64,000 nucleotides of DNA from Microtetraspora sp. NBRC 13810 (GTDB lineage: Bacteria > Actinomycetota > Actinomycetes > Streptosporangiales > Streptosporangiaceae): positions 62,001 to 126,000 of the forward strand of contig NZ_BSRQ01000010.1 in assembly GCF_030268685.1 (NCBI RefSeq), in the 5' to 3' direction. The translations under genes were made by a program, and so were the position numbers. Shown in pieces: positions 17,601-23,313 of the stretch; within the stretch, counting starts at the first letter, position 1; each line of letters begins with the position of its first letter. Below the pieces are notes generated by a model. The model saw only the letters and a program-made list of their open reading frames with translations. It searched no databases and was not told the origin of the DNA.

Positions 17601-17683
17601 GGCCGGTTCAGGACTCCAGCAACCGGCCCGGCCGGTTCAGGACTCCAGCAACCGGTCCGGCCGGTTCAGGACTCCAGCAACCG
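17601..17683. repeat. 29-bp tandem repeat, three copies, spanning the soxR stop codon
   Basis: Three head-to-tail copies of a 29-base unit whose core is GGTTCAGGACTCCAGCAACC (cores at 17605, 17634 and 17663). The third copy contains the last codons and the TGA stop of the minus-strand soxR gene, so two extra copies of the soxR 3' end lie downstream of it. Differences between copies are limited to one or two bases at the unit borders. Confidence 0.9.
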
Positions 17684-18118
17684 GGGCCCCGGTCCCTGCT
17701 CGGCGAGGACGTCGCCGGGGTTGACGAGCAGGCACTGCTCGAAGGACAGGCAGCCGCAGCCGATGCACTCGGTGAACCGGTCGCGCATCCGCTCCATCTT
17801 CGCGATGCGCGCGTTGACCTCCTGCTTCCAGTACTCCGAGACGCCGACCCAGAACTCCCGGGTGGGCTCCGCGTCGTGCGGGAGCATGCCGAGCACGTAA
17901 CCGATGCAGGACAGCGGCATGCCGGCGCTCTGGGTGGCGCGGATGAAGGCGACCCGGCGCAGGGTCGTGCGGTGGTAGCGGCGCTGGTTGCCGGTGGTGC
18001 GCCGGCTGCGGATCAGCCCCTGGCGCTCGTAGAAGCGCAACGCGGAGGCGGGCACGCCGCTGCGCTCGGACAGCTCTCCGATGGTGAGTTCCTTGGTGAT
18101 CGTCCCCTGGTCCGGCAT
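17666..18118 (-). CDS. soxR: SoxR redox-sensing transcriptional activator
   Basis: MerR-family [2Fe-2S] regulator that senses redox-active compounds. The N-terminal winged helix (LTIGELSERSGVPASALRFYERQGLI) and dimerisation helix are followed by the iron-sulfur motif with Cys118, Cys121, Cys123 and Cys129 (CIGCGCLSFEQC), the exact SoxR spacing. Length is 150 residues. It is divergent from an NADPH-dependent FMN reductase gene, and a 22-base palindrome lies between them. In actinomycetes SoxR controls such oxidoreductases in response to the cell's own pigments or antibiotics, rather than a soxS gene. Its 3' end is duplicated in a tandem repeat. Confidence 0.95.
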   Translation of the reverse strand: MPDQGTITKELTIGELSERSGVPASALRFYERQGLIRSRRTTGNQRRYHRTTLRRVAFIRATQSAGMPLSCIGYVLGMLPHDAEPTREFWVGVSEYWKQEVNARIAKMERMRDRFTECIGCGCLSFEQCLLVNPGDVLAEQGPGPRLLES

Positions 18119-18135
18119 ACCGGCCAGCCTAGCTT

Positions 18136-18157
18136 GACTTAAACCTTTGTTTAAGTC
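18136..18157. promoter_or_regulatory. SoxR operator palindrome
   Basis: GACTTAAAC (18136-18144) and GTTTAAGTC (18149-18157) form a perfect inverted repeat with a 4-base spacer, midway between soxR and the FMN reductase gene. A TTGACT box (18134-18139) overlaps the left arm. MerR-family sites usually lie in such an over-long promoter spacer. Confidence 0.82.
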
Positions 18158-18210
18158 CGAGAGTGTTCCTGCGCACCGAAACGGTTGTGAACGAACAGGA
18201 GAATCTCGCC

Positions 18211-18810
18211 ATGCTGGAAAACCCCCGCCCGCTGAAGGTGGCCGTGATCGTCGGCAGTGTCAGGGAAGGCAGGTTCGGCGCCGTCGTGTCGCGGTGGTTC
18301 GCCGCCCAGACGGCCGGGCGCACCGACATGACGGTCGACGTGGTGGACCTCGCGGACGTCCCGCTCCCCCTGGTGCTGCCCGCCTACGGCGGCACCCCGT
18401 CGCCCGAGACCGTTCGCGCCCTGGCCGGCCTGAGCCCCCGGCTGGACACGGCCGACGCGTTCGTGGTGATCACCCCCGAGTACAACCACAGCTTCCCCGC
18501 CTCGCTGAAGAACGTCATCGACTGGCACCAGCGGGAGTGGCACGCCAAGCCGGTCGGCTTCGTGTCCTACGGCGGCCTGTCCGGCGGGCTGCGCGCGATC
18601 GAGCAACTGAGGATCGTCTTCGCCGAGGTGCACGCCGTGACCATCCGCGACACCGTCAGCTTCCACAACGCCTGGGGCGGGTTCGACCCCGAGAACCCGG
18701 CCACCGGCCCGGCCGGCTGCGAGAGCGCGGCCAAGACCATGCTCGACCAGCTCGCCTGGTGGGCCCACGCCCTGCGCGACGCCAAAACCGGACGCCCGTA
18801 CGCCGCCTGA
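18211..18810 (+). CDS. NADPH-dependent FMN reductase (SoxR target)
   Basis: Flavodoxin-fold oxidoreductase of 199 residues that transfers electrons from NAD(P)H via FMN to quinones or other acceptors. The phosphate-binding loop VIVGSVREGRFG starts the protein, and the family motif TPEYNHSFPASLKNVIDW follows near residue 90, with YGGLSGGLRAIEQLR after it. ATG at 18211 is preferred (AGGAG nine to thirteen bases upstream); GTG codons at 18163 and 18187 are possible alternatives. It faces soxR across a palindromic operator, so it is most likely induced by redox-cycling compounds and may detoxify them. Confidence 0.9.
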   Translation: MLENPRPLKVAVIVGSVREGRFGAVVSRWFAAQTAGRTDMTVDVVDLADVPLPLVLPAYGGTPSPETVRALAGLSPRLDTADAFVVITPEYNHSFPASLKNVIDWHQREWHAKPVGFVSYGGLSGGLRAIEQLRIVFAEVHAVTIRDTVSFHNAWGGFDPENPATGPAGCESAAKTMLDQLAWWAHALRDAKTGRPYAA

Positions 18811-19703: not shown

Positions 19704-20381
19704 ATGATCGAGGTGATCGGGGCGGGCCTGCCGCGTACGGGCACTCTGTCGCTCAAGGCGGCGTTGGAGCGGCTGGGGTTCGGGCCGTGCTACCACATGT
19801 TCGAGATCTACGACCATCTTGAGCTCATCGACCGCTGGCTGCCCGCCGTGCCGGACACCCCGGCGGGATGGGAGCGGGTGTTCGCGGGTTACCGTTCGAC
19901 GCTGGACTGGCCGGCCAGCTTCTTCTGGCGCGAGCAGGCGGCGGCGTTCCCGCGGGCGAAGGTCGTCCTCACCGTGCGCGACCCCGCGGGCTGGTGCACG
20001 AGCTTCCACAACATGATCAGCCTGCGCGCCGAGCCGATGCCGCCGGACGCCCCGGCGGCGGCCGTGTCCTTCCAGGCGAGCTTCGCGCGCATCCAGCCGC
20101 TGCTGGGACGGATCGTGCGCGCCACCTTCGGGGAGGATCTGCGTTTCCCGGACGAACTGCCGAGCGAGGAGCAGGCCGCGCGGGCTTTCGACCGGCATGT
20201 GGCCACCGTACGGCAGAGCCTGCCCGCCGACCGGCTCCTGGTCTTCGACGTGCGCGAGGGCTGGGAACCGCTGTGCGCCTTCCTCGACGTCGACGTGCCG
20301 GCCGGTGAGCCGTTTCCGCGGCTCAACGACATCGAGGCCACCAAGCGCAGATTCGAGCAGTTCAACCTGGGCCGCCGGTAG
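19704..20381 (+). CDS. Sulfotransferase family protein
   Basis: A 225-residue PAPS-dependent sulfotransferase. The N-terminal phosphosulfate loop reads GAGLPRTGTLSLKAAL, and the 3'-phosphate site appears as VVLTVRDPAGWCTSF near residue 97. The C-terminal FDVREGWEPLCAFLDV motif is typical of the Sulfotransfer_4-type group found in fungi and actinomycetes. ATG at 19704 is chosen because the loop then begins at residue 6. The gene ends about 157 bases before the NRPS-like synthetase on the same strand, making it a plausible tailoring enzyme for that product. The acceptor is unknown. Confidence 0.85.
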   Translation: MIEVIGAGLPRTGTLSLKAALERLGFGPCYHMFEIYDHLELIDRWLPAVPDTPAGWERVFAGYRSTLDWPASFFWREQAAAFPRAKVVLTVRDPAGWCTSFHNMISLRAEPMPPDAPAAAVSFQASFARIQPLLGRIVRATFGEDLRFPDELPSEEQAARAFDRHVATVRQSLPADRLLVFDVREGWEPLCAFLDVDVPAGEPFPRLNDIEATKRRFEQFNLGRR

Positions 20382-20538
20382 CCGCCGGCCTGCGGTCCCG
20401 CCGTAAAGCACGGTCATGCCCCAGTAGAGCGTCCCGGGAAGACGGTAACTTTCCCGCAAGATACCCATCAAAGCTCATCTTCTCCCCGGCGGCCCCCGTC
20501 CCCATTCCGCCTAATCTGGCGGCACGGGGGGAAATATC

Positions 20539-23313
20539 GTGACTGGCGAATCGCGAGTTCATGTCAGGAGAGAAGCCAGTCCGGGCGGGAACGGCGGTAT
20601 CGCGGAACTCCTCTTGCGGGCCGCGGCGACATCCCCGCCGGACTTGGGAGTCTGTTACATCGACGATTCGGGCGACGCCGACGTCCAGCCGTACCGGGAC
20701 CTGCTGGACCTGGCCCGCCGCCTGCTCACCGGGCTGCGGAAGGCGGGCCTCGCGCCGCGGGCCAGGGTGGCGCTGCTGCTGGAACGGCCGCGGGACGTCG
20801 TCCCGGCCTTCTGGGCGTGTGTGCTCGGCGGATACGTGCCGTGCCCGATGACGCCGCTGCGCGGGGACGCCGGGCGCTGGGCGGCGCAGCTCCGGCACGT
20901 CGGCAGGCTGCTGGGCGACCCGGTGGTGATCACGAGCGCGGCCATCAGGCGGGACATGCCGACCGCGCCCGGCCTCCGGGTCGTGCTGCTGGAGGACCTG
21001 CCCGCCGCCGACCCCGAACCGGCGTTCCCGGCGCCCGACCCGGACGAGGTGGCGCTGCTGATGCTGACCTCGGGTTCCTCCGGCGACAGCAAGGCCGTCA
21101 TGCTCACCCACGGCAACCTGCTGGCGGCCCTGGCCGCGAAGGCCGAACGGCTGGAGTTCCAGGCCGAGGACGTCATGATGAACTGGATCGCCTTCGACCA
21201 CGTGGCCGCCTTCGAAGGGCACCTGCTCCCCCTGTCGGCCGGCGCCGCCCAGGTCCAGGTGCAGCCGCAGTTCGTCCTGAGCGACCCGGTGCGATTCCTG
21301 CGCCTGGCGGCGGCGCACCGGGTCACCCTCACCTTCGCCCCCAACTTCCTCTTCGCCGGCATCGACCGGGCACTGGCCGACGCGCCCCCGGATCCCGAAC
21401 TCGACCTGTCCGCGCTGCGGCTCGTCATCTCCGGCGGCGAGGCGGTCGTGTGCGCCACCGCGCGGCGCTTCCTGGCCGGCCTGGCGCCGTACGGGCTGCG
21501 GGAGGAGGCGATCGCGCCCGCGTTCGGAATGACCGAGACGTGCGCGGGCAGCACCTTCTCCCGCGAGTTCCCCGCCGTGGACGCCGGGCGGGAGTTCGCG
21601 TCGCTCGGCCCGCCCGTCCGCGGCCTGCGGTTGCGCGTCGCGGACGAGCGGGACACGCCGCTGCCCGAGGGCGCCACGGGCGAGCTCCAGGTGCGCGGCC
21701 CGATGGTCTTCCGCGGCTACCTCAACGACCCGGAGGCGACCCGCGCGGCGTTCACCGAGGACGGCTGGTTCCGCACCGGGGACCGCGGCTCCCTCGTCGG
21801 CGGACGGCTGCGCCTGGCCGGCCGTACCAAGGAGAGCGTCATCGTCAACGGCGTCAACTACTACAGCCACGACGTGGAGACGGCGCTGGAAGAGCTGGAG
21901 GAGGTCGAGAACTCCTGCGTGGCCGCCTTCCCGACCCGGCCGCCGGGCAGCGACACCGAGCAACTGGTGATCGCCTTCACCCCGGCCGTGCCGATGTCCG
22001 ACGAGGCGGCGATCCACCGGGTGCTGGTGGCGATCCGCACCACCGTCGTACTGCTCTGGGGTTTCCGCCCGGCGCTGATCCTGCCGCTGCCCAGGGCGGA
22101 GCTGCCGAAGACCAGCCTGGGGAAGATCCAGCGCGCGGTGCTGCGCGGTCGCCTGGAGCGGGGGGAGTTCGAGGCCCGCGAGCGCTGGGTGGCCGAGCTG
22201 ACCGAACGGCGGCTCGGCGGGAACGTGCCGCCGCGCGACGACACCGAGCGCGCGGTCGCCGGCGTCTACGCCGACCTGTTCGGCCTCGACCCCGGCCGGG
22301 TCAGCGCCACGGCGAACTTCCTGGAACTGGGCGGGACGTCGCTGGACGTGCTGCGGCTGAAGCAGCGCCTCCAGCGCGCCTTCCCGGCCGCCGACCTGCC
22401 GGTCCTGACGATCCTGCGCTCGCCCACCGTCCGCGCGCTGGCCGCCCTGCTCGGCCGTGGCGCGCGGACCGGCGACGGTTACGACCCCATCGTGCCCCTC
22501 CAGCTCACCGGGGACCGCACCCCGCTGTTCTGCGTGCACCCCGGGGTGGGCGAGGTCCTCGTCTTCGTCAACCTGGCCGGCTACTTCACCGGCGAGCGTC
22601 CCTTCTACGCGCTCCGGGCCCGGGGCTTCGCCCGCGGCGAACCGTACTTCACCGGCTTCGAGGAGATGGTGTCCTGCTACGTGCGCGCGATCCGGCGGCG
22701 CCAGCCGTCCGGGCCGTACGCGATCGCCGGCTACTCCTACGGCGCCGCCGTGGCGTTCGAGATCGCCAAGGCGCTGGAGGGGCAGGGCGAGCGGGTGGAC
22801 TTCGTCGGCATCTTCAACCTGCCGCCGCACATCAGGGCCCGCATGCACGAGCTGGACTTCACCGAGGGCGCGGTGCACCTGGCCCTCTTCCTCGACCTCG
22901 TCACCCCCGAGCAGGGGGACGAACTCCTCGGCCGGATCCGCGGCCTGTCCCGGCCCCGGCAGATCGACCACATCATGCGGGCCGCCTCCAAGCGCCGCCT
23001 GGCCGAGCTCGACCTGGACCGGAAGGGCTTCGCCGCCTGGGTCGAGCTGGCGCAGTCCCTGGTGAGGGCGGGCCGCTCCTACGAGCCGAGCGGCAGCGTC
23101 GCCTCGCTCAGCGTCTTCTACGCCATCCCGCTGCACGGGACCAAACAGGACTGGCTGGCCGGCGAACTACGCAGATGGGACGACTTCGCCCGCGGCGAGA
23201 ACCGGTACATCGAGGTACCCGGCGAGCATTACACCCTCATGAACGCCGACCACGTCGGCGCCTTCCAGCACATCCTGCGCACCGAACTGGACCGCGCCCT
23301 GGGCGGGAAATGA
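20539..23313 (+). CDS. NRPS-like synthetase: adenylation - thiolation - thioesterase (A-T-TE)
   Basis: A 924-residue single-module enzyme without a condensation domain. The adenylation domain (about 20-555) has A3 LMLTSGSSGDSKAVMLTHGN at 174, a WIAFDHVA segment, A5 AFGMTETCAG, A7 WFRTGDRG and A10 LPKTSLGKIQR. The thiolation domain carries the phosphopantetheine serine Ser601 (LGGTSLDVL). The thioesterase has CVHPGVGEV, nucleophile Ser733 (GYSYGA) and His897 (GEHYTL). A-T-TE enzymes of this shape, such as RalA and fungal furanone or quinone synthetases, activate aryl-pyruvates and dimerise them. The DHVA segment fits that group, but substrate is inferred. GTG start with GGGGGGAAA ahead. A sulfotransferase lies just upstream, and an Sfp-type transferase at 58636 could activate it. 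Confidence 0.88.
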   Translation: MTGESRVHVRREASPGGNGGIAELLLRAAATSPPDLGVCYIDDSGDADVQPYRDLLDLARRLLTGLRKAGLAPRARVALLLERPRDVVPAFWACVLGGYVPCPMTPLRGDAGRWAAQLRHVGRLLGDPVVITSAAIRRDMPTAPGLRVVLLEDLPAADPEPAFPAPDPDEVALLMLTSGSSGDSKAVMLTHGNLLAALAAKAERLEFQAEDVMMNWIAFDHVAAFEGHLLPLSAGAAQVQVQPQFVLSDPVRFLRLAAAHRVTLTFAPNFLFAGIDRALADAPPDPELDLSALRLVISGGEAVVCATARRFLAGLAPYGLREEAIAPAFGMTETCAGSTFSREFPAVDAGREFASLGPPVRGLRLRVADERDTPLPEGATGELQVRGPMVFRGYLNDPEATRAAFTEDGWFRTGDRGSLVGGRLRLAGRTKESVIVNGVNYYSHDVETALEELEEVENSCVAAFPTRPPGSDTEQLVIAFTPAVPMSDEAAIHRVLVAIRTTVVLLWGFRPALILPLPRAELPKTSLGKIQRAVLRGRLERGEFEARERWVAELTERRLGGNVPPRDDTERAVAGVYADLFGLDPGRVSATANFLELGGTSLDVLRLKQRLQRAFPAADLPVLTILRSPTVRALAALLGRGARTGDGYDPIVPLQLTGDRTPLFCVHPGVGEVLVFVNLAGYFTGERPFYALRARGFARGEPYFTGFEEMVSCYVRAIRRRQPSGPYAIAGYSYGAAVAFEIAKALEGQGERVDFVGIFNLPPHIRARMHELDFTEGAVHLALFLDLVTPEQGDELLGRIRGLSRPRQIDHIMRAASKRRLAELDLDRKGFAAWVELAQSLVRAGRSYEPSGSVASLSVFYAIPLHGTKQDWLAGELRRWDDFARGENRYIEVPGEHYTLMNADHVGAFQHILRTELDRALGGK

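Follow-up and report, generated by a model that had tools for sequence, protein, structure and literature searches.

A candidate aryl-pyruvate-dimerising synthetase and its conserved sulfotransferase partner in Microtetraspora sp. NBRC 13810

Several bacterial and fungal pathways begin with a single-module nonribosomal peptide synthetase-like (NRPS-like) enzyme made of adenylation, thiolation and thioesterase (A-T-TE) domains. The EchA and DatA proteins of the Streptomyces echoside and daturamycin pathways turn phenylpyruvate into polyporic acid, and the datA-datB-datC gene order resembles that of the echoside cluster (PMC9379647). The BTH_II0204-0207 operon of Burkholderia thailandensis, associated with terphenyls, encodes an NRPS-like enzyme together with a dehydratase, an isomerase and a methyltransferase (PMC6481063). 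RalA, of ralfuranone biosynthesis, and the fungal furanone and quinone synthetases have the same A-T-TE layout and dimerise aryl-pyruvates (PMC10316625); the enzyme studied here shares this layout. That enzyme is encoded in a 64,000-nucleotide stretch of contig NZ_BSRQ01000010.1 of Microtetraspora sp. NBRC 13810 (the whole stretch is called the window, and coordinates are window positions). It resembles EchA and DatA in its A-T-TE layout, keto-acid-type specificity code and thioesterase motifs, and shares 57–60% identity with Streptomyces enzymes whose genes stand in the EchA/DatA order. The window locus differs from theirs in lacking the EchB dehydratase and EchC (SnoaL-like) genes and in having a sulfotransferase gene upstream instead. 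The kind of synthetase is already known in bacteria, and it is the pairing with a sulfotransferase and the missing EchB/EchC set that are new. Our reading, to which we give a probability of roughly 0.55, is that this is a minimal two-gene cassette whose product would be a phenylpyruvate dimer, most likely polyporic acid, a quinone resembling mushroom pigments, that is then sulfated by the upstream-encoded enzyme, which is predicted to depend on 3'-phosphoadenosine-5'-phosphosulfate (PAPS).

The sulfotransferase gene (19704–20381, + strand) lies directly upstream of the A-T-TE gene (20539–23313, + strand), with 157 bases between them. The same arrangement, on one strand and with gaps that shrink to a short overlap, is present in Actinomadura craniellae, Nonomuraea aridisoli, Nonomuraea thailandensis and three other genomes (G200, G213 and G352), so that all seven members of one A-T-TE clade, from Streptosporangiaceae-type genomes and including the window protein, have it. 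Gene calls over about 20 kb around the seven loci found nothing but the pair common to them all; flanking genes are shared only between N. thailandensis and G213, which are close relatives. Because six other genomes have the pair too, among flanks that, this one case apart, are unrelated, its adjacency is more than chance. The seven A-T-TE proteins form one clade (100/99) that was recovered in two trees, with a single change of the linkage label (one gain) in every bootstrap tree, and the linked sulfotransferases likewise form one clade (100/99), inside which the sole unlinked member, that of genome G203, is nested. In G203 the sulfotransferase (L075:1501-2145) stands alone behind an upstream gene of the same kind as that of N. 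aridisoli, so the A-T-TE gene appears to have been lost there. In genome G225 the sulfotransferase gene is intact, and after it come only decayed scraps of an A-T-TE gene (L087:2185-2590) that correspond to its start, to residues from about 121 to 147 and to its last 63 residues. No EchB or EchC homologue was found by tblastn near the window gene or near its sulfotransferase-linked relatives. The linkage, the congruent clades, the differing flanks, the G225 scraps and the absence of EchB and EchC together show that the two genes are a cassette inherited as a pair, which supports an earlier note, made from the sequence of the window, that the adjoining sulfotransferase belongs with the synthetase.

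The A-T-TE gene starts with a GTG codon, 5' of which is a purine-rich sequence resembling a ribosome-binding site (GGGGGGAAA), and encodes 924 amino acids. Pfam matches are AMP-binding at residues 46–395 (2e-53), PP-binding at 572–638 (3e-11; 22252–22452) and Thioesterase at 662–908 (1.5e-29; 22522–23262). Since Pfam finds nothing beyond these three domains in the protein, it has no condensation domain, and the earlier description of a complete single-module A-T-TE enzyme of this shape is correct, as are the residues that were named with it. Ser601 (22339–22341), of the thiolation domain, lies in GGTSL, while the thioesterase residues Ser733 (22735–22737) and His897 (23227–23229) lie in GYSYG and GEHYTLM, respectively; all three are conserved in the family. 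The usual aspartate position of the thioesterase catalytic triad is occupied by Asn760 (22816–22818, in FNLPP) in the window protein and in nearly all of its bacterial A-T-TE relatives, and the aspartate is retained only in four of them (L027, L031, L058 and L059). Because of this substitution, the thioesterase may work with a Ser-His dyad.

The adenylation domain extends over about residues 46–545 (20674–22173). Its best solved relatives are two keto-acid-activating enzymes, McyG (4.6e-111) and StsA. The structures concerned, the McyG adenylation-carrier protein fragment (4r0m) and StsA (6ulw/6ulx), represent related keto-acid or phenylpropanoid adenylation domains, but both proteins fall outside the A-T-TE family (100/100) and have no dimerising thioesterase. 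Alignment with GrsA (1amu), supplemented by motifs, gives the ten-residue pocket code VAEFIGAAGK; the GrsA numbering was confirmed over 298–335, so that code positions 299–331 are anchored in this way, and the rest were placed by motif. The DHVA segment mentioned in the earlier note is at residues 220–223 (21196–21207), and its Val222 replaces Asp235 of GrsA, which binds the substrate amino group. The first code position is thus Val/Ile rather than Asp, as expected for a pocket that does not take amino acids, and Val at this position marks keto-acid enzymes (PMC10316625). Enzymes that use phenylpyruvate have Ile or Val at position 5, and those that use 4-hydroxyphenylpyruvate have Asn (PMC10316625); the window protein has Ile there and no Asn, and its code matches that of enzymes in phenylpyruvate-type clusters. 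Adenylation of a keto acid is therefore a strongly supported prediction, and the code and the relatives also support phenylpyruvate as the probable substrate.

One scan of a genome collection yielded 35 close relatives, from Actinomadura, Nonomuraea, Marinactinospora, Streptomyces, Frankia, Burkholderia, Chromobacterium, Xenorhabdus and others. In maximum-likelihood trees all of the relatives used form one group (100/100) that is separate from McyG and StsA. Enzymes identified by synteny stand in for EchA and DatA in this placement, and no recognisable RalA turned up in 349 Burkholderiaceae genomes or in the plasmid records. Many relatives, which branch on either side of the window protein, adjoin an EchB-like dehydratase gene and a SnoaL-like gene; the window protein lies between Streptomyces enzymes linked to EchB and EchC and enzymes of Burkholderia and others linked to EchB and SnoaL. 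Two Burkholderiaceae relatives (L068 and L069) are 58% identical to it and have adjoining EchB and SnoaL genes; gene order suggests that they belong to the BTH_II0204-0207 type of cluster, which differs from the window locus in having no sulfotransferase and another set of tailoring genes. The published datA-datB-datC and BTH_II0204-0207 gene orders agree with the neighbours of the tree relatives, and from this synteny we infer that the ancestral enzyme joined phenylpyruvate into a terphenylquinone and that the window protein most probably does so as well. The aryl-pyruvate class of substrate that the earlier note had suggested is thus supported by the closest structures, by the non-amino-acid code and by a position inside the EchA/DatA-type family. 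The note also considered actinomycetes an unusual source of such compounds. This does not hold, since whole-genome searches found relatives in 40 of 344 Streptomyces genomes sampled (and, within the window's own family, in 15 of 341) and Streptomyces products have been published.

These relatives include other arrangements. A second type of Streptomyces A-T-TE cluster (the L016-L042 set, e.g. L021:8448-9644 and L017:13640-15652) has an ATP-grasp-like gene upstream, and downstream an EchB-like dehydratase gene and a gene for a 670-amino-acid protein that reads as an acetyltransferase fused to an aminotransferase. In Actinomadura rupiterrae, two A-T-TE loci that look identical (L038 and L039) lie near contig ends, accompanied by EchB-like and SnoaL-methyltransferase genes; they may be the terminal repeats of a linear chromosome or a duplication introduced by the assembly. 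In Marinactinospora, which is sister to the sulfotransferase-linked clade, the A-T-TE gene is followed by a SnoaL-O-methyltransferase-like fusion (L012:12750-14135), and neither EchB nor a sulfotransferase is present.

The upstream protein (225 amino acids) is a member of PF17784, Sulfotransfer_4 (1.8e-61; 208 bits against a cut-off of 22.8). Its orthologues begin at the same ATG as that at 19704, although the frame stays open further 5'. In an alignment of 24 sulfotransferases and in comparison with solved chains, the 5'-phosphosulfate-binding motif LPRTGT is at residues 9–14 (19728–19745), with Arg11, Thr12, Gly13 and Thr14 invariant, and the 3'-phosphate-binding motif RDPxxWxxS is at residues 92–100 (19977–20003). 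Asp68 (19905–19907) is invariant in the same 24 proteins; it aligns with Asp91, the probable catalytic aspartate of the Schistosoma sulfotransferase. With the PAPS-binding motifs and the catalytic acid retained, the protein is predicted to carry out PAPS-dependent sulfate transfer, and the source genome encodes an adenosine-5'-phosphosulfate kinase domain. A predicted model of its structure (pLDDT 82) is closest to SgdX2 (8y9p; Z 24.1, root-mean-square deviation 2.4 over 192 residues) and to Cpz8 with bound 3'-phosphoadenosine-5'-phosphate (9kf1/9kf2; Z 22.5, 2.7 over 197), with Schistosoma sulfotransferases next. SgdX2 and Cpz8 are PF17784-type PAPS enzymes that are 44–47% identical to the window protein (Z 22–24), but they serve the sungeidine and caprazamycin pathways, respectively, rather than an A-T-TE enzyme. 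With PAPS as its donor, Cpz8 sulfates a triketide pyrone (PMC6731281), which is a precedent for sulfation of an acidic enol-type hydroxyl such as polyporic acid would offer.

In the pathway that we propose, phenylpyruvate from primary metabolism would be adenylated by the A-T-TE protein, loaded on Ser601 and passed to Ser733 of the thioesterase; a second loaded molecule would be joined to it there by Claisen-Dieckmann chemistry and the dimer released. The roles of Ser601 and Ser733 are assigned by analogy with the described synthetases. The released dimer would most likely be the terphenylquinone polyporic acid, a quinone being favoured over a furanone by the phylogenetic bracketing and by the shared thioesterase motifs. 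The PAPS-dependent sulfotransferase, whose gene is probably co-transcribed, would then sulfate an acidic enol of the dimer or a hydroxyl of its reduced hydroquinone, giving a water-soluble sulfate ester; this step is suggested by the conserved linkage and by homology to Cpz8. A sulfated aryl-pyruvate dimer had been proposed in the earlier note; to that can now be added a probable substrate and support for the sulfotransferase link, and the choice between furanone and quinone, which it had left open, leans toward the quinone through the bracketing.

Several observations weigh against this reading. The placement depends on synteny-defined stand-ins for the named EchA, DatA and RalA; none of the members of the sulfotransferase-linked clade has a known product, and the open-licence literature searched yielded no polyporic acid sulfate. 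The absence of EchB and EchC means that the pathway must depart from that of the echosides after the first step, and the survival of the G203 sulfotransferase without an A-T-TE partner makes a wider role for it possible. Finally, Leu rather than Ile or Val occupies position 5 of the pocket code in five of the six nearest relatives (five of seven in the clade). This last point, together with the ease with which phenolic hydroxyls can be sulfated, gives some room to 4-hydroxyphenylpyruvate or indolepyruvate as substrate, with an atromentin- or asterriquinone-type core bearing sulfated phenols; we think this unlikely, given the Ile, the lack of Asn and a code equal to that of phenylpyruvate-type clusters in the window protein itself. 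Slightly less unlikely is the release of a five-membered core, such as a furanone, in the manner of RalA and the fungal furanone synthetases, followed by sulfation. The thioesterase sets a quinone, furanone, lactone or dioxolanone core within the chemistry of the family (PMC9047271; PMC12105029), and the companions of quinone products are missing here, but the GYSYG / FNLPP / GEHYTLM signature is the same as that of the EchB-EchC-linked enzymes that flank the window protein in the tree. Activation of an amino acid or fatty acid by an ordinary NRPS-like enzyme is extremely improbable: the protein does have matches to generic fatty-acyl and NRPS profiles of NCBIfam, but each scores below the cut-off of its profile, and the tree (in which it does not group with such enzymes), the pocket code and the best solved relatives all contradict the idea, so we rejected it.

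Other alternatives concern the sulfate. It might be a leaving group, a hydroxyl being activated for elimination or rearrangement in place of the EchB step. The closest fold match, SgdX2, is described as an activating sulfotransferase and the cassette has no EchB, yet Cpz8, about equally close, forms a sulfate ester that is handed on and not eliminated, and quinone enol sulfates are in our judgement poor candidates for elimination; we regard this as doubtful. An equally speculative variant is that sulfation belongs to the building of the core and not to its decoration: it would trap or activate one tautomer of the dimer and so replace EchB, in which case two genes could give an undescribed sulfated terphenyl or ring-contracted scaffold. 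That the sulfotransferase is a mere neighbour acting on an unrelated metabolite is a little harder still to credit: PF17784 paralogues are common (182 of 338 genomes of the window's family) and one close copy, that of G203, has no A-T-TE gene, but the linkage in all seven clade members among differing flanks, the congruent single clades and the decayed A-T-TE gene that still sits beside the sulfotransferase in G225 speak against it. There is very little to recommend the last idea, a sulfated dimer that shuttles its sulfate to another molecule. Homology to Cpz8 and the published two-step Cpz8/Cpz4 route of caprazamycin biosynthesis (PMC6731281) suggest it, but the source genome has no match to Arylsulfotrans (PF05935) or Arylsulfotran_2 (PF14269), which argues against such a relay, and we set it aside; Cpz4 is divergent from other such arylsulfotransferases, so this negative is not final.

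Just upstream of the cassette is a divergent pair of genes for a MerR regulator and a flavin mononucleotide (FMN) reductase (17666–18810), and just downstream, on the opposite strand, a gene for a subtilisin-inhibitor-like secreted protein (PF00720; 23428–23829). A wider conserved cluster was considered and rejected: the MerR/FMN reductase pair, an S-adenosylmethionine-dependent methyltransferase, the protease inhibitor and an M28 peptidase are not kept beside the relatives.

Synthetases of this type are common among Streptomyces, where they are accompanied by at least two further sets of tailoring genes, and the enzymes described here are a distinct subfamily of bacterial aryl-pyruvate-dimerising enzymes, as predicted from their sequences, with a dedicated sulfotransferase. 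Neither sulfated terphenylquinones nor a sulfotransferase in a terphenylquinone pathway was found in the open-licence literature. If our reading is true, the cassette would be a route to this apparently undescribed class of product, sulfated terphenylquinones or furanones, and its two genes, at 3.6 kb, are small enough for direct expression. It would also open a way into the PF17784 sulfotransferases of actinomycetes, most of which are uncharacterised, by offering a member whose substrate can be predicted.

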